Source of the DNA: Chloroflexota bacterium
Lineage (GTDB): Bacteria; Chloroflexota; Anaerolineae; Aggregatilineales; UBA2796
Assembly: GCA_021325095.1 (NCBI GenBank)
Contig: JAJPHV010000124.1
Location: forward strand, 1-64,000
Direction of reading: 5' to 3'
Length of the DNA: 64,000 nucleotides
The position numbers and the translations under genes were made by a program. The notes under the pieces were generated by a model, which did not search any database, was not told the origin of the DNA, and saw only the letters and a program-made list of their open reading frames with translations. Within the stretch, counting starts at the first letter, position 1. Every line of letters starts with the position of its first letter. Positions 5,082-45,516 of this stretch are shown in pieces.

Positions 5082-6038
5082 TCAACCTCGCCGCCGCAAT
5101 GCGATCAGCGAGATGAACTCGTAGACGAGATTGGCCGCCAACAAGCACGTCACGCCGCCTTCGGAGTCGTAGGGTGGCATCACCTCCACCAGATCGAAGC
5201 CGACAAAATTGACCCCCACCAGGCCCCGGATCAACTGCTGGCACTGCGCGCTGGTGAAGCCGCCCACTTCGGGCGTGCCTGTGCCGGGCGCATAGGCCGG
5301 ATCAACGAAGTCGATGTCAAAGGTCAGGTAGGCCGGGCCGTCGCCCACCCGCTCGCAGATGCGCCGGAATGTTTCCTTCATGCCGATCTCGTGCATTTCC
5401 GGCCCGGTGATCAACTGGAAGCCCAGTTCCTCCGTGATCTGAGCGTCGGCCTCGTCGTACAGCGAGCCGCGCAGCCCGGCCTGCGTCGAGCGCGCTGTGT
5501 CGATCAAGCCTTCTTCACAGGCCCGGCGGAAGGGCGTGCCGTGTGTGTCTTTTCCACCGAAATAGCCGCTCCACAGATCGCTGTGGGAGTCGAAGTGAAC
5601 CAGGGCCACCGGGCCATATCGGGCGGCTGCCGCCCGCAATAGTGGCAGCGACACAGAATGATCGCCACCCAGGAAGATCGGCGTTGCACTGCTGGCAAAG
5701 ACCGTCGCCGCACCCTGCTCGATCTGCTTGTGCGACTCCGGCAGATAGCCGGGCGTCACCGCCAGGTCGCCGTAATCGACGCCGGAACATATATCGAAGA
5801 TCGGCACTTTGAGCGCCGGGTTGTAGGTGCGCAGCAGCATCGACTGGTTGCGGATGCCCTCCGGCCCGAAGCGCGCGCCGACCCGAAAAGTCCCGCCCGT
5901 ATCGAAGGGCACGCCGACGACGGCAAAATCGACGCCTTCCAGATCGGTCACGTGGGGCAGGCGCATGAAGGTGCGGATACCGGAGAAACGCGGGTAAACC
6001 ATCGCATCCAGCGGGCGGTATTGCTTTTTGGCAAGCAT
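5082..6038 (-). CDS. Ureohydrolase (agmatinase/guanidino-acid hydrolase family)
   Basis: 318 residues, the usual length for the arginase/agmatinase family. All binuclear Mn ligands are visible: GGDHS (H127), HFDSHSD (D150, H152, D154) and TFDIDFVDPAYAPGTGTPE (D241, D243). The family hydrolyses a guanidino group to urea plus an amine; relatives act on agmatine, guanidinobutyrate, guanidinopropionate or free guanidine. The second motif has Ser where Ala is commonest (HFDAHxD), so the substrate class is open. It is encoded downstream of the ABC importer genes, separated from the ATPase gene by a palindromic repeat, which suggests that the imported compound or an intermediate carries a guanidino or related group. 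Confidence 0.85.
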   Translation of the reverse strand: MLAKKQYRPLDAMVYPRFSGIRTFMRLPHVTDLEGVDFAVVGVPFDTGGTFRVGARFGPEGIRNQSMLLRTYNPALKVPIFDICSGVDYGDLAVTPGYLPESHKQIEQGAATVFASSATPIFLGGDHSVSLPLLRAAAARYGPVALVHFDSHSDLWSGYFGGKDTHGTPFRRACEEGLIDTARSTQAGLRGSLYDEADAQITEELGFQLITGPEMHEIGMKETFRRICERVGDGPAYLTFDIDFVDPAYAPGTGTPEVGGFTSAQCQQLIRGLVGVNFVGFDLVEVMPPYDSEGGVTCLLAANLVYEFISLIALRRRG

Positions 6039-6058
6039 AGTAACTTTCCTCTATATAA

Positions 6059-6167
6059 CCTCACCCCCTGACCCCCTCTCCGCTTCGCAGAGAGGGGAGC
6101 CAGGACGAGACAAGTTGTCGCCCGCTGCCCCCTCTCCACCGCAGTGGAGAGGGGCCGGGGGTGAGGC
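6059..6167. repeat. CCTCACCCC-bounded palindromic repeat, copy 2
   Basis: 109 bases with terminal inverted repeats CCTCACCCC and GGGGGTGAGG and two internal hairpins (CCCTCTCCGC/GCAGAGAGGG and CCCCTCTCCACC/GTGGAGAGGGG). It lies between the ABC ATPase and ureohydrolase genes, where it could act as a processing or termination hairpin. Confidence 0.8.
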
Positions 6168-6170
6168 GAC

Positions 6171-6968
6171 TCATTCGGTTTCGCTCGTCAACCGGATCGC
6201 CTTCAGACTCTCCTCTTTGATGGCGTCGAGGACGGCGCGTTTGTGCTCGATGAAACGCGGATCGGTGGTCAGTTCCCCTGTGCGCGGGCGCGGCAGATGC
6301 ACATCCAGCACCTGCTTGATGCGGCCAGGGCGCGCCGTCATGATGTAGACCCGATCTCCCAGGAACAGCGCCTCGTCGATGTCGTGCGTCACAAACAGGA
6401 TCGTCTTGGGCGTGCGCTGCCAGATCGTGACCAGCAGCTCTTGCATGATGGAGCGCGTCTGGGCATCCAGCGCGCCGAACGGTTCATCCATGAGCAGCAC
6501 TTCGGGGTCGTTCGCCAGGGCACGGGCGATGGCGACGCGCTGCATCATACCCCCCGACAACTCTTTGGGGTAGCTGCGCTCGAAGCCTTGCAACCCGACC
6601 AATTCGATGTATTCGCGCGCCAGCCGGGCCCGCTCGGCGGCGGGCATGTGCTTGAGCCGGGGGCCAAACTCGACGTTGCCCTGCACCGTCAGCCAGGGGA
6701 ACAGCGTGTAGGACTGGAAGACCATGCCGCGATCTGCCCCGGGGCCGGTGATGTGCCGTCCGTCCAGCAGCACGTCGCCGCGCGCCGGGCGCACCAGCCC
6801 GGCCACCACCCGCAGAAGGGTCGATTTGCCGCAGCCGCTTGGCCCGACAATGGTGATGAATTCCCGCTCCGCCACGTCCAGCGACAGGTTATCGACGGCA
6901 ATGATCTCGCCGCCCCGCCGGGCGCGGAAGGTCATGGTGATGTCGCGCAGTTGGAGTTTAGGTTTCAT
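6171..6968 (-). CDS. ABC transporter ATPase, NitT/TauT (SsuB-like) family
   Basis: About 265 residues. Walker A GPSGCGKST lies near residue 43, the Q-loop is VFQSYTLFPW, the signature LSGGMMQRV precedes Walker B (VLLMDEPFGALD), and the switch histidine is in THDIDEALFL. The pattern is that of SsuB/TauB ATPases that energise uptake of sulfonates, nitrate or related small anions and thiamine precursors. The ATG at 6968 is chosen over an in-frame TTG at 6974. The permease stop is at 6975, so the genes are translationally coupled. Confidence 0.92.
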   Translation of the reverse strand: MKPKLQLRDITMTFRARRGGEIIAVDNLSLDVAEREFITIVGPSGCGKSTLLRVVAGLVRPARGDVLLDGRHITGPGADRGMVFQSYTLFPWLTVQGNVEFGPRLKHMPAAERARLAREYIELVGLQGFERSYPKELSGGMMQRVAIARALANDPEVLLMDEPFGALDAQTRSIMQELLVTIWQRTPKTILFVTHDIDEALFLGDRVYIMTARPGRIKQVLDVHLPRPRTGELTTDPRFIEHKRAVLDAIKEESLKAIRLTSETE

Positions 6969-6974
6969 GGGCAA

Positions 6975-7826
6975 TCAACGGTGTCGTGGCGACCAGGGCA
7001 GCAGGATTCGGTGCAGCCACTTGAATAGAAAATCGCTGACGAAGCCGAGCAGACCAATCGTCACCAGCCCGACGAATATCTTGTCGGTACGCAGGCCGCG
7101 CTCGGATTCCAGGATCATGATGCCCAGGCCGCGTTCGGCTGCCACCAGTTCGGCCACGATCAGGTACGTCCACGCCCAACCCAGCGTGATGCGCAGTGCG
7201 TCCATGACGCCGGGCAGCGTTGCCGGAACCAGCACCGTCGTCAGCACGCGCCAGCGCGACGCGCCGAGGGTGTAGGCGCTGTCCAGCAGATCCTTCGCCA
7301 CGTGGTTGGCTACGTCGGCCACGAGCAAGATCAGTTGAAAGAACGTGCCCAGGAAAATCACCGAGATTTTCTCCGGCTCGTCCAGCCCGATGTACAGGAT
7401 AAGGAGCGGGATCAGGGCGCTGACGGGCAGATAGCGCCAGAAGTCCACGACGGGTTCAAACAGCGCTTCCAGGATTTTGAAGCTGCCCATCAGAATACCT
7501 ACCGGGATCGCCAGCAGCGCGGCGATGGCCCAGCCGATGACGACGCGCAAAACGCTGGCCTCGGCGTTTAGCTGCAACTCGCCGGATTGGAACATGCGGG
7601 CCGCAGCCGCGATGACCTGCGTTGGCGTCGGCAGGAAGTAGGCAGGCTTGATGAAGCCGCCGTAGCTCAGGATCGCCCACGACCCGAAAATGAGCACCAG
7701 GCTGACGATCACCGCGCCCAGATAGTGGCTGCGCGGGATCGGCTCGTGGGGCTTGAACGCATCCCCGATGGGCATGGGGCGGCGCAAGGGCTTGATTTCA
7801 GATTGCGGTTTGCTGGCGGCTTCCAT
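6975..7826 (-). CDS. ABC transporter permease, NitT/TauT (SsuC-like) family
   Basis: 283 residues with six predicted membrane segments. The first is at about 38-58 after a cytosolic N-terminus. The EAA-type loop (LGASRWRVLTTVLVPATLPGVMDALRITLGWAW, about 192-225) couples to the ATPase. It lies between the substrate-binding protein gene and the ATPase gene on the same strand, completing an importer. The C-terminal RGLGIMILESERGLRTDKIFVGLVTIGLLG is typical of SsuC/TauC-type permeases. Confidence 0.92.
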   Translation of the reverse strand: MEAASKPQSEIKPLRRPMPIGDAFKPHEPIPRSHYLGAVIVSLVLIFGSWAILSYGGFIKPAYFLPTPTQVIAAAARMFQSGELQLNAEASVLRVVIGWAIAALLAIPVGILMGSFKILEALFEPVVDFWRYLPVSALIPLLILYIGLDEPEKISVIFLGTFFQLILLVADVANHVAKDLLDSAYTLGASRWRVLTTVLVPATLPGVMDALRITLGWAWTYLIVAELVAAERGLGIMILESERGLRTDKIFVGLVTIGLLGFVSDFLFKWLHRILLPWSPRHR

Positions 7827-7847
7827 AACTTGCGTCTCGATGCTTTA

Positions 7848-7905
7848 CCTCACCCCCAGCTCCTCCTCCCCTCTCTGCTTGCGGAAAGGGGCCGGGGGTG
7901 AGGTC
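7848..7905. repeat. CCTCACCCC-bounded palindromic repeat, copy 3 (short)
   Basis: A 58-base version with terminal CCTCACCCCC and GGGGGTGAGG and one internal hairpin. It lies between the substrate-binding protein and permease genes, so it falls within the transporter operon. Confidence 0.7.
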
Positions 7906-7911
7906 AGATTC

Positions 7912-8946
7912 TTACTTGGCTGACGTCGCCGACATGGTGGCGGCCATTGTCGCCATGCTTTCGGGCGCGACAAAACTGCTGTCGAGCATGTCTTCGGGCT
8001 TGCCGGGCGTGGTGATGATACCCAGTTTGCTGTAGAAATCGATGGCGAACTTCAGCGTGGCGTAGGCTGAACCTTTGTCCGTACCGGTGAAAACCTGCTT
8101 GTTGCGCTCGGCATCAAAGAGCGTTGCGCCAGCCAGGTCGGCTTTGATGTCGTCGGGCGTCTCGTAGAACCCGCCCAGGCCCTTCTGCATGATCGAGTCG
8201 GCGTCGTCCGGGTTGGACTTCCAGTATTCGATGGCCTTGTTCCAGGCGGCAACCAGGCCGGGCGCAGCAGTCGGATTGGCTTTCATCACGTCGTTACGTA
8301 GCAGCATGATGTCCATGATCAGGCCCGGTGTCTCCTTTGAGGAAGCGATCAGCTTCGCGCCATTCTTGACGGACTTGGACAGGTGCGGCTCCCAGGTCAC
8401 GCCTGCGTCAATGCGGTTGGCAGCCAGCGCAGCGGGTACGTCGCCCTGTTTCATCTTGACGAGCTTCACGTCGTCGCCCGACATACCGTTTTGCTCAAGG
8501 ACGTATTCCAGGAAGAACTGCGATACCGAGCCGACGTTGACGCCGATCTGCTTGCCCTTCAAATCCTTCACCGAGTTGATGCTCGGATTGGCGACAATGC
8601 CATCGCCGCCGGACGATTCATCCAGGCCCAGGAAGGCTTTGAAGGGCGATTCGGCCTTCCAGTACTGGGCCATCGTGTCCAGTGTCGTGACCAGGCCGTC
8701 CAACTGGTTGCCCGCCAGCGCCGTAAAGCGATCTTTCGGGTCTTCGACTTTGACCAGTTCAACGTCCAACCCCTGCTCGGTGAAATAGCCCTTGTCGCGC
8801 GCGATGAACAGCGGGCCGTAGCCCACCCAGACCGAGTACCCCAGCTTGAGTTTGACGGGGGACTGTGCCGTGCCTCCCTGCGCGGACAGGAGCAAGAGCA
8901 ACACGAAGCCGAGAACCATCAGCACGCGAACAGACCTAATTTTCAT
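7912..8946 (-). CDS. ABC transporter substrate-binding protein, NMT1/TauA-like
   Basis: 344 residues. The start at 8946 is set by GAAGGAGAC four bases upstream; an in-frame start nine codons earlier has no such site. A Sec signal peptide (MKIRSVRVLMVLGFVLLLLLSAQG) lacks a lipobox cysteine. The mature protein begins VKLKLGYSVWVGYGPLFIARDKGYFTEQGLDVELV, the hallmark of NMT1/THI5-type binding proteins of NitT/TauT importers (taurine, alkanesulfonates, nitrate, thiamine pyrimidines). The C-terminus is an unusual Met/Ala/Thr-rich tail (ESMATMAATMSATSAK). It is the first gene of the putative operon. The divergent region 8947-9077 contains an ATTATAAT palindrome at 8999-9006 but no convincing -35. 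Confidence 0.9.
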   Translation of the reverse strand: MKIRSVRVLMVLGFVLLLLLSAQGGTAQSPVKLKLGYSVWVGYGPLFIARDKGYFTEQGLDVELVKVEDPKDRFTALAGNQLDGLVTTLDTMAQYWKAESPFKAFLGLDESSGGDGIVANPSINSVKDLKGKQIGVNVGSVSQFFLEYVLEQNGMSGDDVKLVKMKQGDVPAALAANRIDAGVTWEPHLSKSVKNGAKLIASSKETPGLIMDIMLLRNDVMKANPTAAPGLVAAWNKAIEYWKSNPDDADSIMQKGLGGFYETPDDIKADLAGATLFDAERNKQVFTGTDKGSAYATLKFAIDFYSKLGIITTPGKPEDMLDSSFVAPESMATMAATMSATSAK

Positions 8947-9077
8947 CTTAGTCTCCTTCAGCAATATCGCCAAAACAGAATGGATGGGCGTAAGGTGGAT
9001 TATAATTGTGATCTTTCGGGCTGCATATGGGTGTTGAGCATAGGATATAAGTGCCGAAAAAGCAAGGAGGACGCAGG

Positions 9078-10259
9078 GTGACAGCCACCGATCTACCCCA
9101 GGGCATGACGCGCGATACCATATCGCTGCTGCTCGGCCACCCCGACCCGGCCACGCTGCTGACCGACGAGTTCCAGGCCGCCATGCAGAACGCCATGAAC
9201 CAGCCTCGCTCCTACGCGGCCCTGCAATACGGGCCGGAGCAGGGCACGCCCCGCCTGATCCAGTTCCTGGTGGGGCGGCTCAACCGGGAACAGCAGCTTA
9301 CCCTGCAACCTGATCAGGTAATGATCGTGGCCGGAGCGACCCACGCCGTCGATATGATCGCGCGCCTGTATGCCCGGCCGGGCGGCGTGGTGCTGGTCGA
9401 GGCCCCCACCTATGCCGACTCGATCCACATCTTCCGCGATCACCAGATTGACCTGCGGGCCGTACCGATGGACGAGCATGGGTTGCTCATCCCGGAACTG
9501 GAAAGGCAGTTAGCAGCCCTCAAAGGCGAAGGTAAATCGCCCGCCTTCCTGTACACGATCCCCAACTTCCACAACCCGACGGGCATTACCACGTCCGAAG
9601 CACGGCGCATCGAGGTGATCCGGCTGGCCCACCAGTACGGATTTCTGATCGTGGAAGACGACGTGTACCGCGAGCTGTCGTTCGAGGGCATCGTGCCGCG
9701 CAGCTATTATGCGCTCGCCAATGGCGAAGGCGTATTGAGCATCGGCAGCTTTTCCAAGACACTGGCTCCGGGTCTGCGCCTGGGCTGGCTGGTCGGCTCC
9801 ACAGGGGCGATCCAGCGTTTCGTCAACTGTGGCACGACGCAGATGGGCGGCGGTGCGAACCCGTTTGCTGCCCACATCGTGGCCGAATATTGCTGCGAAG
9901 GCTATTGGGAGGCGCACATTGCCCGCCTGCGCGCGCTCTACAGGCAGCGCTGTGACGTAGCCCTGAGCGCACTGCGCGAATACATGCCGAAGGGCGTCAC
10001 CTGGACACAGCCAGAGGGCGGCTTCTTCCTGTGGCTGACCCTCCCGCAGAGCGTGCTGGCGCAGCCGGTCAAGCAGGCGGCGCTGCGAAACGGTGTCCTG
10101 GTGGCGGCGGGCAATGGGTTTTTCGTCAAGCCCGACGATGGCGATCACAACCTGCGGCTGGCGTTCAGCTTTGCCGCACCCGCCGACATCGAAGCCGGAA
10201 TCCGCATCCTGGGCCAGGTGATCGGGCAGTTGAGCACCAGCAAAGTGGCCCAGCCCTGA
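9078..10259 (+). CDS. PLP-dependent aminotransferase class I/II (2-aminoadipate aminotransferase-like)
   Basis: 393 residues from GTG 9078, which has AAGGAGG (9064-9070) seven bases upstream; an in-frame GTG at 9051 lacks a site. Motifs: NFHNPTGITTS, EDDVYREL (Asp that holds the PLP pyridine nitrogen), SFSKTLAPGLRLGW (Schiff-base Lys) and LRLAFSF (substrate carboxylate Arg). It resembles LysN-type aminotransferases and the C-terminal domain of MocR regulators, without the HTH. It is divergent from the ABC/ComDE-like operon. An aminotransferase would supply the 2-oxoacid a ComDE-type enzyme decarboxylates, so functional coupling is plausible but unproven. Confidence 0.9.
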   Translation: MTATDLPQGMTRDTISLLLGHPDPATLLTDEFQAAMQNAMNQPRSYAALQYGPEQGTPRLIQFLVGRLNREQQLTLQPDQVMIVAGATHAVDMIARLYARPGGVVLVEAPTYADSIHIFRDHQIDLRAVPMDEHGLLIPELERQLAALKGEGKSPAFLYTIPNFHNPTGITTSEARRIEVIRLAHQYGFLIVEDDVYRELSFEGIVPRSYYALANGEGVLSIGSFSKTLAPGLRLGWLVGSTGAIQRFVNCGTTQMGGGANPFAAHIVAEYCCEGYWEAHIARLRALYRQRCDVALSALREYMPKGVTWTQPEGGFFLWLTLPQSVLAQPVKQAALRNGVLVAAGNGFFVKPDDGDHNLRLAFSFAAPADIEAGIRILGQVIGQLSTSKVAQP

Positions 10260-10308
10260 GAGCGATTCCGAGAATTCGGCGCTGTTCCGCTGTTTGAGCA
10301 ACGGACTG

Positions 10309-10337
10309 TTGACATTGGGCGGGAAATCGATGATAAT
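10309..10337 (+). promoter_or_regulatory. Strong sigma-70-type promoter of the HypE-like gene leader
   Basis: -35 TTGACA (10309-10314), 17-base spacer, -10 GATAAT (10332-10337). The predicted start of transcription, near 10344, gives a leader of about 170 bases before the next long gene. Confidence 0.65.
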
Positions 10338-10399
10338 CCACTTCGTAGTGAGCAATCACCCTCCTGATTTGCCATCAAAGAAAGGAGGAGGTGGTGCAC

Positions 10400-10453
10400 A
10401 TGTCTGATAATGGTAAGCGCAGCGCTGTGGCACCCCTCTCCTCGATGGAATAG
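10400..10453 (+). CDS. 17-residue leader ORF with a very strong ribosome binding site
   Basis: ATG at 10400, TAG at 10451; encodes MSDNGKRSAVAPLSSME. It is preceded by an exceptionally purine-rich Shine-Dalgarno (AGGAGGAGGTG, 10383-10393), much stronger than that of the downstream gene. An upstream CACCCTCCT (10357-10365) is complementary to that site. The reading frame runs through the 5' arm of a 12-bp hairpin and stops at the 3' arm. It is most likely a regulatory leader peptide, but a functional microprotein cannot be excluded. There is no obvious run of regulatory codons. Confidence 0.5.
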   Translation: MSDNGKRSAVAPLSSME

Positions 10454-10464
10454 TGCCACAGCGC
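10422..10464 (+). promoter_or_regulatory. 12-bp leader hairpin overlapping the leader ORF stop
   Basis: Perfect inverted repeat GCGCTGTGGCAC (10422-10433) and GTGCCACAGCGC (10453-10464) with a 19-base pyrimidine-rich loop. The leader ORF stop codon overlaps the first base of the 3' arm, so a terminating ribosome would disrupt the stem. The loop (CCCTCTCCTC) could also pair with the GA-rich Shine-Dalgarno. Confidence 0.6.
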
Positions 10465-10470
10465 AAACAA

Positions 10471-10502
10471 AGGCTCCTGTCGATGGCAGGAGCTTTTGTT
10501 TT
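10471..10502 (+). terminator. Intrinsic terminator in the leader of the HypE-like gene
   Basis: Stem GGCTCCTG / CAGGAGCT followed by TTTTGTTTT, ending 15 bases before the ATG of the next gene. Its position directly upstream of a start codon, behind a promoter, is that of an attenuator rather than an end-of-gene terminator. Confidence 0.75.
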
Positions 10503-10516
10503 AGGGTGAAAACGGA

Positions 10517-11518
10517 ATGACCATTTTACCCTTCGGAAAACTCCCGCCGCACCTTCTGGCCGATCTGATCGGGCGCTTGCCCACCGACCCGCGCGTGGTG
10601 ATCGGGCCACGCCCTGGCGAAGATGCTGCCGTGATCGACATGGGCGATCACTACCTTGTTGCCAAGACCGATCCGATCACCTTTGCGACGGAAGCCGTTG
10701 GCTGGTACGCCGTGCAGGTCAATGCCAACGACATTGCCACGACAGGCGCAGTGCCACGCTGGTTCATGGCGACGCTTCTGCTGCCAGGCGGCCTGGCCGA
10801 CGAAAGCCTGGCCCGCACCATCTTCGGCCAGATCGCGGAGGCGTGCCAGACTCTGAATGTGGCCGTCGTCGGCGGCCACACCGAGATCACCTACGGGCTG
10901 GATCGATCCATCGTGGTCGGCTGCATGTTGGGCGAAGTGCCCAAAGACCGACTGGTGACGACAGGCGGCGCACAGATCGGCGACGCCGTGCTGCTCTCCA
11001 AAGGTGTGCCGGTTGAGGGCATTGCCATCCTGGCCCGCGAACGACGCCAGACGCTGCTGGCGCATTTCGACACAGCCATGCTGGATCGCTGCGCCAATTT
11101 CCTGTACCAGCCGGGGATCAGCGTCGTGCGCGATGCGGCGGTAGCGCTGTCTGTCGGCGGCGTGACCAGTATGCACGACCCGACAGAAGGCGGGCTGGCG
11201 ACGGCACTGTGGGAAGTAGCTGACGCCTCCGGACACGGCATCCAGCTTCTGGCGGACCAGCCCTCGCCGCTCGTGCCAGAAAGTGTGATCTGCGACGCCC
11301 TGGGCCTCGACCCCTGGGGAGTCATTGCATCGGGCGCGCTGCTGCTCACCTGCCGGGCGGATCGCGTTCCGGCCATGCGCGCAGCATTCGATGACACCGG
11401 AATTCGCCTGTTCGCGCTTGGCACAGTGATCGAACGCCCCGGCGTCTACACGCCGGGCGGAAGCGAGCTGCCACGCCCGGCCAGGGACGAGATCGCGCGG
11501 CTATTTGAAAGCGGCTGA
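10517..11518 (+). CDS. AIR synthase (PurM)-superfamily protein, HypE-like
   Basis: 333 residues. The N-terminal ATP-binding part has PGEDAAVID (about 33-42), TDPITFATEAVGWYAVQVNANDIATTGA and VVGGHTEITYGL. The C-terminal domain has MHDPTEGGLATALWEVADASG. This is the PurM/ThiL/SelD/HypE fold, closest in pattern to HypE-like proteins. It lacks the C-terminal cysteine tail by which true HypE makes the hydrogenase cyanide ligand, and no hyp or hydrogenase gene is near. Function is therefore open: an ATP-dependent phosphotransfer or dehydration on an unknown substrate. Expression probably depends on the attenuator-like leader upstream. Confidence 0.75.
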   Translation: MTILPFGKLPPHLLADLIGRLPTDPRVVIGPRPGEDAAVIDMGDHYLVAKTDPITFATEAVGWYAVQVNANDIATTGAVPRWFMATLLLPGGLADESLARTIFGQIAEACQTLNVAVVGGHTEITYGLDRSIVVGCMLGEVPKDRLVTTGGAQIGDAVLLSKGVPVEGIAILARERRQTLLAHFDTAMLDRCANFLYQPGISVVRDAAVALSVGGVTSMHDPTEGGLATALWEVADASGHGIQLLADQPSPLVPESVICDALGLDPWGVIASGALLLTCRADRVPAMRAAFDDTGIRLFALGTVIERPGVYTPGGSELPRPARDEIARLFESG

Positions 11519-30437: not shown

Positions 30438-30542
30438 CTCTCATCTTCCAGGGTCTGCCTCTGCCGGAATTAGCACCTTCCCGACGCTTCGGGGGTTGCC
30501 GCGGTATCATAGGGCCGGTCCCTCAACCGCTCTGGATAAGAG
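30438..30542 (-). promoter_or_regulatory. SAM-I (S-box) riboswitch aptamer
   Basis: The minus strand shows the S-box core in order: P1 strand CTCTTATC, AGAGCGGTTGAGGGACC, GGCCCTATGATACC, GCGGCAACC, AAGGTGCTAATTCC, GCAGA, and closing P1 strand GATGAGAG. P1 pairs CTCTTATC with GATGAGAG. These match the SAM-I consensus (GAGGGA, GGCCC, GGCAACC, GGTGC-AATTCC). Upstream is a promoter, downstream a terminator, then a two-gene unit ending in metK, the classical S-box target. Confidence 0.95.
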
Positions 30543-33272: not shown

Positions 33273-33363
33273 GGAGGGGTGCCAGAGTGGTTGATCGGGG
33301 CGCTCTCGAAAAGCGTTGTGCAGTAACCCTGCACCGTGGGTTCGAATCCCACCCCCTCCGCCA
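33273..33363 (+). tRNA. tRNA-Ser(CGA)
   Basis: The acceptor stem GGAGGGG pairs with CCCCTCC. The anticodon stem GCGCT/AGCGT encloses loop CTCGAAA with anticodon CGA (codon UCG). There is a long variable arm typical of tRNA-Ser, a T-arm with GTTCGAATC, discriminator G, and an encoded 3' CCA. It is intact. Confidence 0.96.
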
Positions 33364-43395: not shown

Positions 43396-45516
43396 ATGCA
43401 CCAGATCGAACGTGATAGCACTGGCAAACGTACAGGCAAGGTCATTTGCCCGTACTGCGGAGTCGGCTGCCTGATGGATGTTGCGACACAGACCAATCGC
43501 ATTCTTGAAGTGCATGGCACCGCTGAGTCGCCCGTGAATCAAGGACGGTTATGCCCGAAGGGTGCATTGTCGAGCCACATCCTCGATCTTCCAGGCCGCT
43601 TGCTGACTCCCCAATTCAGAAATGATCGTGCTGATGAGTGGATGGATCTGGATTGGCCGACGGCGCTGGCGCAAGTGAGCGCCCGGTTGCACGACATTAT
43701 CGAGCGCTACGGCCCGGATTCGGTGGCGCTCTATGGCTCCGGTCAGCTCGATACCGAGGCATGGTATCTTGGCAATAAACTGTTCAAAGGCTATATCGGC
43801 TCCAATCATGTCGATAGTAACAGCCGCTTATGTATGGCAAGCGCCGTCGCTGCTTACCAATCAACACTGGGCAGCGACGGCCCGCCAACCTGCTACGACG
43901 ACATCGTCCACAGCGACTGCTATCTGATCGCAGGCAGCAACATGGCCGATACGCATCCCGTGACTTTTCAACGCTTGAAAGCGCATCGTCATCGCAACCC
44001 GAACGTCAAAATGATTGTGCTCGATCCGCGTTATACCCATACTGCGCAGGTCGCCGATATTCACGTTCCGTTGTTGCCCGGCAGCGACATTGCCTTCTTC
44101 AATGCCATTGCCCGGATTGCGCTGGATCGTGGGCGTGAGGATTGCCGGTTCATCGAAGATCACACCACAGGCTTTGAAGCCTACGCCGCGCTGCTCTGTT
44201 CGCTCGACCTGCACGAGCTTGCTGCGATCTGCGGTGTGCCGCTCAACCTGATCAATCATGCAGCCGACGTGATCCTTCAGTCGCGGGCGTTACTGTCATT
44301 CTACTGCATGGGGCTTGGGCAAAGCAGCAGTGGAACCGCCAAAAATCAGTCGCTGATCGACTTGCACCTGCTCTTAGGTCAAATTGGCAGGCCAGGAGCA
44401 GGGCCATTCTCGCTGACCGGACAACCGAATGCGATGGGCGGACGCGAACTAGGCGGGCTGGCTCATCTGCTGCCGGGCTACAGGCTGATCGAGAACACAG
44501 ATCACCGCCGCGAGGTAGAACAAGCCTGGCACATCCCCGAAGGCAGCATTGCTGCTCAACCGGGCCTGACCGCAGTGGAGATGTTCAAAGCGCTTGATTC
44601 TGGGCGGCTGAAAGCGATCTGGATCGTGTGTAACAATCCGCTGGTCAGCCTGCCGAATCTGGCACTGGCAAAACAGGCACTTCAAAAGGCGGAACTGGTC
44701 ATCGTGCAAGATTGCTTCGAGACGGAAACGACTCGCGTGGCCGATTTTGTTCTGCCTGCCGCGCAGTGGATAGAAAAATCGGGCACGATGACCAACAGCG
44801 AACGGCGTGTTACTCGCTCTATCCAACTGGCTGAACCGCCCGGTGAAGCGAAGCCAGATTGGTGGATTTTCAGTCGGGTGGCCCAGGCAATGGGTTACAC
44901 CGGATTCGGTTATGATGGCATCGACTCGATCTGGGATGAATACCGCCTCCTCACACGAAATCGTCCCTGCGATCAGGTCGGCATTACCAATAAGCGCTTA
45001 AAGACCCAGCAGATTCAATGGCCTTGCCCTTCCGAAGATCATCCCGGTACAGCCCGTCGCTACATCGACTATCAGTTTGCGACTCCCGATAAACGGGCTC
45101 GATTTATTGCCTGCCGATACGAAGAACCCAAAGAACTGCCAACGCTGGCCTTCCCGTTAATGCTCACCACCGGGCGTATCGCATCCCAGTGGCACACGAT
45201 GACGCGCACAGGCAAAATAGCCCGTCTGGCAAAGCAATCAGCCGATCCATATATTGAAATCCACCCTTCTGACGCACACCTATATTCCCTCAACAATGGC
45301 GATGCCGTCAGGGTCGAGAGTATGCGCGGCTGTGTGACCGTCCGGGCCAAGCTCAACGATCTTCTGCGTCCAGGCGTTGTGTTTATGCCATTCCACTGGG
45401 GCGATCTGTTCCGCTCGGGGGTTGCTGCCAATGAGTTGACAAGCGATGCGGTTGACCCGATCTCGAAAGAGCCAGAATACAAAGTCTGTGCTGTACGAAT
45501 AATGAAAGCCAGCTAA
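43396..45516 (+). CDS. Assimilatory nitrate reductase, molybdopterin catalytic subunit
   Basis: 706 residues, NarB/NasA-type length. The N-terminal [4Fe-4S] ligands are C18, C21, C25 (CPYCGVGC) and C53 (GRLCPKG). Mo-coordinating C146 is in SNSRLCMASA. Also present: TFQRLKAHRHRNPNVKMIVLDPRYT, GQPNAMGGRELGG, NNPLVSLPN, and the C-terminal GRIASQWHTMTRTGK and FHWGDLF. It needs bis-MGD cofactor and most likely ferredoxin, as no NAD(P)H-oxidising partner is encoded. Last gene of the operon, ATG with GAGGGGG upstream. The IS110 fragment begins directly behind it. Confidence 0.94.
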   Translation: MHQIERDSTGKRTGKVICPYCGVGCLMDVATQTNRILEVHGTAESPVNQGRLCPKGALSSHILDLPGRLLTPQFRNDRADEWMDLDWPTALAQVSARLHDIIERYGPDSVALYGSGQLDTEAWYLGNKLFKGYIGSNHVDSNSRLCMASAVAAYQSTLGSDGPPTCYDDIVHSDCYLIAGSNMADTHPVTFQRLKAHRHRNPNVKMIVLDPRYTHTAQVADIHVPLLPGSDIAFFNAIARIALDRGREDCRFIEDHTTGFEAYAALLCSLDLHELAAICGVPLNLINHAADVILQSRALLSFYCMGLGQSSSGTAKNQSLIDLHLLLGQIGRPGAGPFSLTGQPNAMGGRELGGLAHLLPGYRLIENTDHRREVEQAWHIPEGSIAAQPGLTAVEMFKALDSGRLKAIWIVCNNPLVSLPNLALAKQALQKAELVIVQDCFETETTRVADFVLPAAQWIEKSGTMTNSERRVTRSIQLAEPPGEAKPDWWIFSRVAQAMGYTGFGYDGIDSIWDEYRLLTRNRPCDQVGITNKRLKTQQIQWPCPSEDHPGTARRYIDYQFATPDKRARFIACRYEEPKELPTLAFPLMLTTGRIASQWHTMTRTGKIARLAKQSADPYIEIHPSDAHLYSLNNGDAVRVESMRGCVTVRAKLNDLLRPGVVFMPFHWGDLFRSGVAANELTSDAVDPISKEPEYKVCAVRIMKAS

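Follow-up and report, generated by a model that had tools for sequence, protein, structure and literature searches.

The apparent leader of a HypE-like gene in a Chloroflexota bacterium is, judging by comparison with its homologues, one copy of a short gene predicted to be transcribed separately. Present neither in Rfam 15 nor in the literature searched, the element is an uncatalogued RNA family. We consider it probable that this conserved small gene has two competing folds and yields a bistable RNA gated by the ribosome, a judgement that applies to the gene and its two folds and not to the output. The window, i.e., the whole stretch of DNA analyzed, is 64,000 nucleotides (nt) long.

Organization of the element in the window

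The unit, composed of promoter, 17-codon ORF, hairpin, and terminator, lies on the plus strand at positions 10309 to 10502. Its promoter (10309 to 10337) consists of TTGACA at 10309 to 10314 and GATAAT at 10332 to 10337, separated by 17 nt, with 11/12 matches. It was the only promoter-like site found when 10240 to 10600 was scanned, and transcription would start at about 10344. Upstream of the Shine-Dalgarno sequence (SD) lie CACCCTCCT (10357 to 10365), a second possible anti-SD sequence, and segment D (TGCCATC, 10370 to 10376; family consensus GCYATCCYA), a block that is near invariant in alignments A1 and A2 and in most members. Segment A, the extended SD AAAGGAGGAGGTGGTGC at about 10381 to 10397, is complementary to the tail of 16S rRNA and precedes the ORF (10400 to 10453), which codes for MSDNGKRSAVAPLSSME. 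Within the ORF are arm B5' of a perfect 12-bp stem (10422 to 10433) and segment B (10430 to 10443), an anti-SD sequence, GCACCCCTCTCCTC, that can pair with segment A. The 3' arm of the stem, arm C (10453 to 10464), begins at the G of the TAG stop codon. An intrinsic terminator hairpin with its T-tract (10466 to 10502) would mark the transcript end, 15 nt before the ATG at 10517 of the HypE-like (AIR synthase related) gene (10517 to 11518, plus strand), which is a neighbor rather than a defining part of the element. The 176-nt leader had a predicted folding energy of -73.9 kcal/mol, compared with -51.5 +/- 4.5 for dinucleotide shuffles (z -4.9, 0/200). Conservation among homologues, described below, carries more weight than this stability. 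An earlier note on this DNA had described the consensus promoter, the strong SD with its 17-codon ORF, the perfect stem with a 3' arm at the ORF stop, and the terminator, all of which are present.

A gene for a MocR/MppQ-type aminotransferase (9051 to 10259) lies just 5' of the element on the same strand. Farther upstream, on the minus strand (5082 to 8973), an agmatinase-like ureohydrolase is encoded beside an SsuA-like binding protein, a permease, and an ATPase, a cluster that looks like guanidine- or urea-type uptake and hydrolysis. The window also holds a SAM riboswitch (30438 to 30542, minus strand, 92.9 bits) and a tRNA gene (33273 to 33360, plus strand). A weak match to the element at 43836 to 43940 (17.6 bits with model R1) was gone with model R3 and was dismissed as noise.

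Two mutually exclusive pairings covary

Segment B has two mutually exclusive partners, the SD in segment A or, extending from the stop codon, arm C. For B5':C, 95% of cells were paired over 100 distinct sequences, with two-sided changes in 12 of the 13 pairs, and the two-sided cells numbered 208, as opposed to 53 after shuffling and no more than 23 when the structure was slid. In an earlier alignment of 18 sequences, two-sided changes were found in 8/13 stem pairs. For A:B, we counted 64 two-sided cells versus 27 after shuffling; 85% of cells were paired, some rows being misaligned. An uninterrupted helix of 10 bp or longer between A and the ORF could form in 59% of members versus 2% of shuffled ORFs. 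The earlier note had proposed aligning related leaders to look for covarying stems, and the outcome bears out both the sequestered ribosome site and the second, competing hairpin.

The median folding energies were -28.1 kcal/mol for A:B alone and -28.6 kcal/mol for B:C alone, with a median difference of 0.6 kcal/mol (10 to 90% range, -4.3 to +4.9). In minimum-energy folds, the SD core was paired in 132/141 members without arm C and in 34/141 with it, which suggests that arm C frees the SD. The window copy belongs to the less perfect examples: interruptions leave its A:B duplex with a longest run of 7 bp (-24.5 versus -26.6 kcal/mol), and part of the SD core stays paired when C is present.

In many families segment B contains AUCACCUCC, i.e., the letters of the 3' tail of 16S rRNA. 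The tail GGATCACCTCCTT, complementary to segment A, is present in seven of eight relatives, where it was confirmed as TGGATCACCTCCTT, and two loci of the window's own family (L281 and L282) have the SD GAAAGGAGGTGATCC, the full complement of this tail. The complementary sequence that the earlier note had placed upstream of the SD, CACCCTCCT, does occur in the window copy; as a constant part of the element it was rejected, CTCCT/CCTCC being in place in only 31 members. A pairing between the GCCATC block and the loop after B (CCATC:GATGG in the window, TATCCTA:TAGGATA in locus L035) looked attractive for a few members but was likewise dropped, as by inspection it is absent in most.

The ORF, its stop codon, and its peptide

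The ORF is mostly 14 to 20 codons long, and in 133/141 members the end of the stop codon falls between -10 and +8 nt relative to arm C. TAG is used by 84, TAA by 54, and TGA by 3 of the 141, whereas 208 of 421 long ORFs of the same loci (49%) end in TGA. The preference for TAG is partly explained by its G, which opens arm C; that for TAA over TGA is not explained in this way. Given the rarity of UGA against this background, nearly all of these ORFs would be terminated by RF1. The distance from SD to start is 10, 13, or 16 nt in 125/141 members, spacings at which an AUG or GUG within the SD shares the reading frame of the ORF. We regard translation of the predicted ORF as supported by these sequence features.

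Many families have similar peptides (M-D-x-S-S...S-A-V-A-S-P). In agreement with the earlier note, which had seen no run of one amino acid, the 141 ORFs contain no regulatory codon run longer than brief stretches of two or three Ser codons. Inspection shows polar peptides rich in Ser and Arg, none with the long hydrophobic segment that would characterize a type I toxin. The earlier note had also suggested looking for a conserved peptide. The usual SAVASP is gone in f18 (MDEKRRTDLREAGRRITSGEDR) and f32 (MDGSMRSLAPRRHLLSG; such labels denote working groups), where a different reading frame runs through the anti-SD sequence with start and stop still in place. These frame changes argue for selection on RNA pairing and translation and for weaker selection on the peptide. 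In codons 4 and 5, the GU letters stay constant while Ser, Cys, Gly, and Arg exchange, which hints at an unrecognized RNA motif after the start codon. Our best reading is that selection would act chiefly on the RNA and on its being translated, rather than on the peptide.

Comparison points to a stand-alone gene with variable neighbors

A sigma-70-type promoter scoring at least 10/12 was found in the same place in 120/140 members versus 2/271 control windows, with a spacing of 17 in 111 members, and a terminator-like hairpin lies 3' of the element in 104/140 members versus 15/406 controls. Of 141 members read in context, 79 are followed by a gene on their own strand and 58 by a convergent one; for 4, the available stretch contains no next gene. 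Downstream neighbors differ from family to family, a HypE-like gene being the commonest (28/141 members, 11 families). In the class sample, 119 genomes had both element and HypE-like gene, 115 the element only, and 55 the HypE-like gene only, a weak co-occurrence (odds ratio 2.0) in counts that may miss some diverged elements. A search of 93 sequences, made up of the window plus 92 loci surrounding HypE-like genes, returned the element in just four. A covariance search over the order also returned members without a HypE-like gene behind them. In genomes of family f4 lacking this gene, the next gene is hppA (membrane pyrophosphatase), 209 to 338 nt away behind a promoter-like site; in other f4 genomes the order is element, HypE-like gene, hppA. 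In L035, a gene with its own promoter-like site separates the element from the HypE-like gene. Comparison thus shows the small gene as a stand-alone unit, with a predicted promoter of its own, an RNA of about 160 nt, and its own terminator.

The protein encoded downstream in the window has the Pfam domains AIRS and AIRS_C and is nearest HypE, yet it scores below the NCBIfam HypE cut-off (97.6 of 251.6 bits). Where a HypE-like gene lies directly 3' of the element, the gap has a median of 66 nt and no good promoter inside, which argues for expression by read-through of the terminator; this is probably how HypE-like genes directly behind the element, including that of this genome, are expressed. 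A purely independent small gene leaves unexplained that 11 families link it to a HypE-like gene without an intervening promoter. The 5' arm of the terminator pairs with upstream sequence no better than expected (mean of 5.87 bp versus 6.00 bp shuffled, 104 members), arguing against an antiterminator, and control of the terminator by conserved pairing was rejected as the members gave no signal of it. The earlier note had interpreted the parts as translation-coupled attenuation of the HypE-like gene. As a general function, a classical attenuator was discarded because the neighbors vary, either of element and HypE-like gene occurs without the other, and no antiterminator is found; nor is a regulated gene regularly placed directly 3' on the same strand, given the convergent neighbors. 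Taken as a whole, the earlier reading is partly supported, the observation itself being confirmed.

Distribution across Chloroflexota

Of the 396 genomes sampled from the window's class, covariance model searches recovered the element in 234, and of 400 from the phylum in 61 (model R2) to 78 (model R3); outside the class it has a diverged form. In both searches there was almost always one match per genome, a count that may miss diverged copies. Within the window's order, eight loci of family f4 have an obvious homologue 5' of the orthologues of the HypE-like gene, and two diverged homologues (L009/L128 and L039) keep the design with different letters. No convincing match was found in the order-mate families f2, f3, f6, f7, and f8, in which the element may be missing or present in a diverged form. 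Locus L129 (G128, 24 bits) was not accepted as a convincing member.

Some copies are altered. The ORF of L252 (G182) is broken, probably by a sequencing error in a single-contig assembly with ambiguous bases. L130 (G032:C264:123-236, minus strand) is a decayed second copy that has lost arm C and has a stop inside the ORF; its genome also carries an intact copy. In L281 and L282 (G003 and G006), the element is strongly diverged even though they belong to the window's own family, and the window copy resembles the element of another family instead. This suggests that the element and the HypE-like gene were acquired together.

Proposed mechanism and alternative explanations

We infer a mechanism in which co-transcriptional order, gating by the 30S subunit, and reopening by the terminating ribosome set the fold. 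During RNA synthesis, the SD would be covered by segment B, which in many families reproduces the 3' tail of 16S rRNA. Once arm C emerges, B:C would form and the SD would be freed. A ribosome on segment A would favor B:C, and a ribosome at the stop codon would reopen it. The state of the RNA would then report initiation capacity, i.e., free 30S subunits or a factor acting there. As to output, we tentatively put forward action in trans via an exposed anti-SD loop or translation-controlled RNA stability, either of them a candidate held with low confidence. Somewhat more speculative is a phylum-wide RNA sensor of translation-initiation capacity, in which a tiny gene combines an almost full-length SD with a copy of the 16S anti-SD, so that 30S binding would flip the balanced switch and the exposed anti-SD loop would act in trans on other messages; were this so, its role would be much like that of 6S RNA for RNA polymerase. 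The estimates for this output and for the alternatives below overlap, as the output could combine more than one reading.

Alternatively, the peptide of 15 to 20 residues might be the product, with the RNA folds merely autoregulating its translation. The conserved ORF, the strong SD, and the avoidance of UGA would agree with this, as would the use of both GAC and GAT for D at codon 2 and a peptide pattern common to most families. However, the stem and the anti-SD sequence impose S-A-V-A-S-P, the motif disappears in f18 and f32, whose altered frames leave RNA pairing and the ORF limits intact, codons 4 and 5 preserve GU rather than amino acids, and members at the phylum level have little peptide sequence in common. 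We therefore find a peptide gene rather doubtful, though less so than the two proposals that follow.

That the element is a cis-acting leader exerting translation-coupled attenuation on the HypE-like gene appears improbable: the frequency of this neighbor, the short promoter-less gaps, and the weak co-occurrence speak for it, but they are confronted with the 115 genomes that have the element without the gene, the convergent neighbors, the lack of antiterminator pairing, and the f4 relatives in which hppA lies behind its own promoter-like site. We give equally little credence to a ligand riboswitch or protein-binding leader of the short ORF, whose sensor would be the 5' hairpin with the GCYATCCYA block. 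This block does precede the SD in nearly all close members, and yfr6/Downstream-peptide is a known case in which a conserved RNA precedes a short stand-alone ORF (PMC2864571); yet the 5' hairpin is variable in sequence and length by inspection, a conserved block of only 9 nt is small for an aptamer, and Rfam returned no match.

A ribosome-gated bistable RNA thus remains the reading we prefer. One would expect so short a gene, retained as a single copy across a major phylum, to be important to the cell, and its design, with SD, 16S-tail copy, and arm at the stop, leads to a sharp, testable prediction on how fold and ribosome loading are coupled. The case also cautions that leaders should not be named from whichever gene follows.

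Relation to known systems

The earlier note knew of no leader class that matched, and this holds: none of 4227 Rfam 15 families reached its gathering threshold in this copy or in 25 diverged loci, where tRNAs outside the element were the only matches, and assignment to a known class was rejected as this copy gave only weak sub-threshold matches, such as suhB and Atu_C8. The literature search returned no description of this element.

In the trp, his, and erm leaders, an ORF overlaps mutually exclusive stems and is followed by a terminator. The element shares this layout but differs from these attenuators in that it lacks a codon run, an antiterminator pairing with the terminator, and a constant downstream gene. 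Dual-function small RNAs such as RNAIII/hld, SR1/SR1P, and SgrS/SgrT are stand-alone transcripts with their own promoter and terminator, a short ORF, and an anti-SD sequence that may sit in a loop. By its sequence, the element has the promoter, terminator, and short ORF of a translated small RNA, and it resembles these RNAs in being a predicted short transcript with an anti-SD sequence. It shows no homology to them, however; its anti-SD sequence lies inside the ORF and pairs with its own SD, the stop of the ORF marks the competing arm, and it is single copy and phylum-wide.

Chloroflexi-1 RNA (RF01698), a candidate RNA listed for Chloroflexus aggregans only (PMC2864571), comes from the same phylum, and cmscan matched it to no member tested. 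The yfr6/Downstream-peptide RNA of cyanobacteria resembles the element in that a conserved RNA structure accompanies a short stand-alone ORF (PMC2864571); in contrast to that RNA, whose Rfam model does not match it, the element has two competing stems that are built partly from the ORF and take in its SD.
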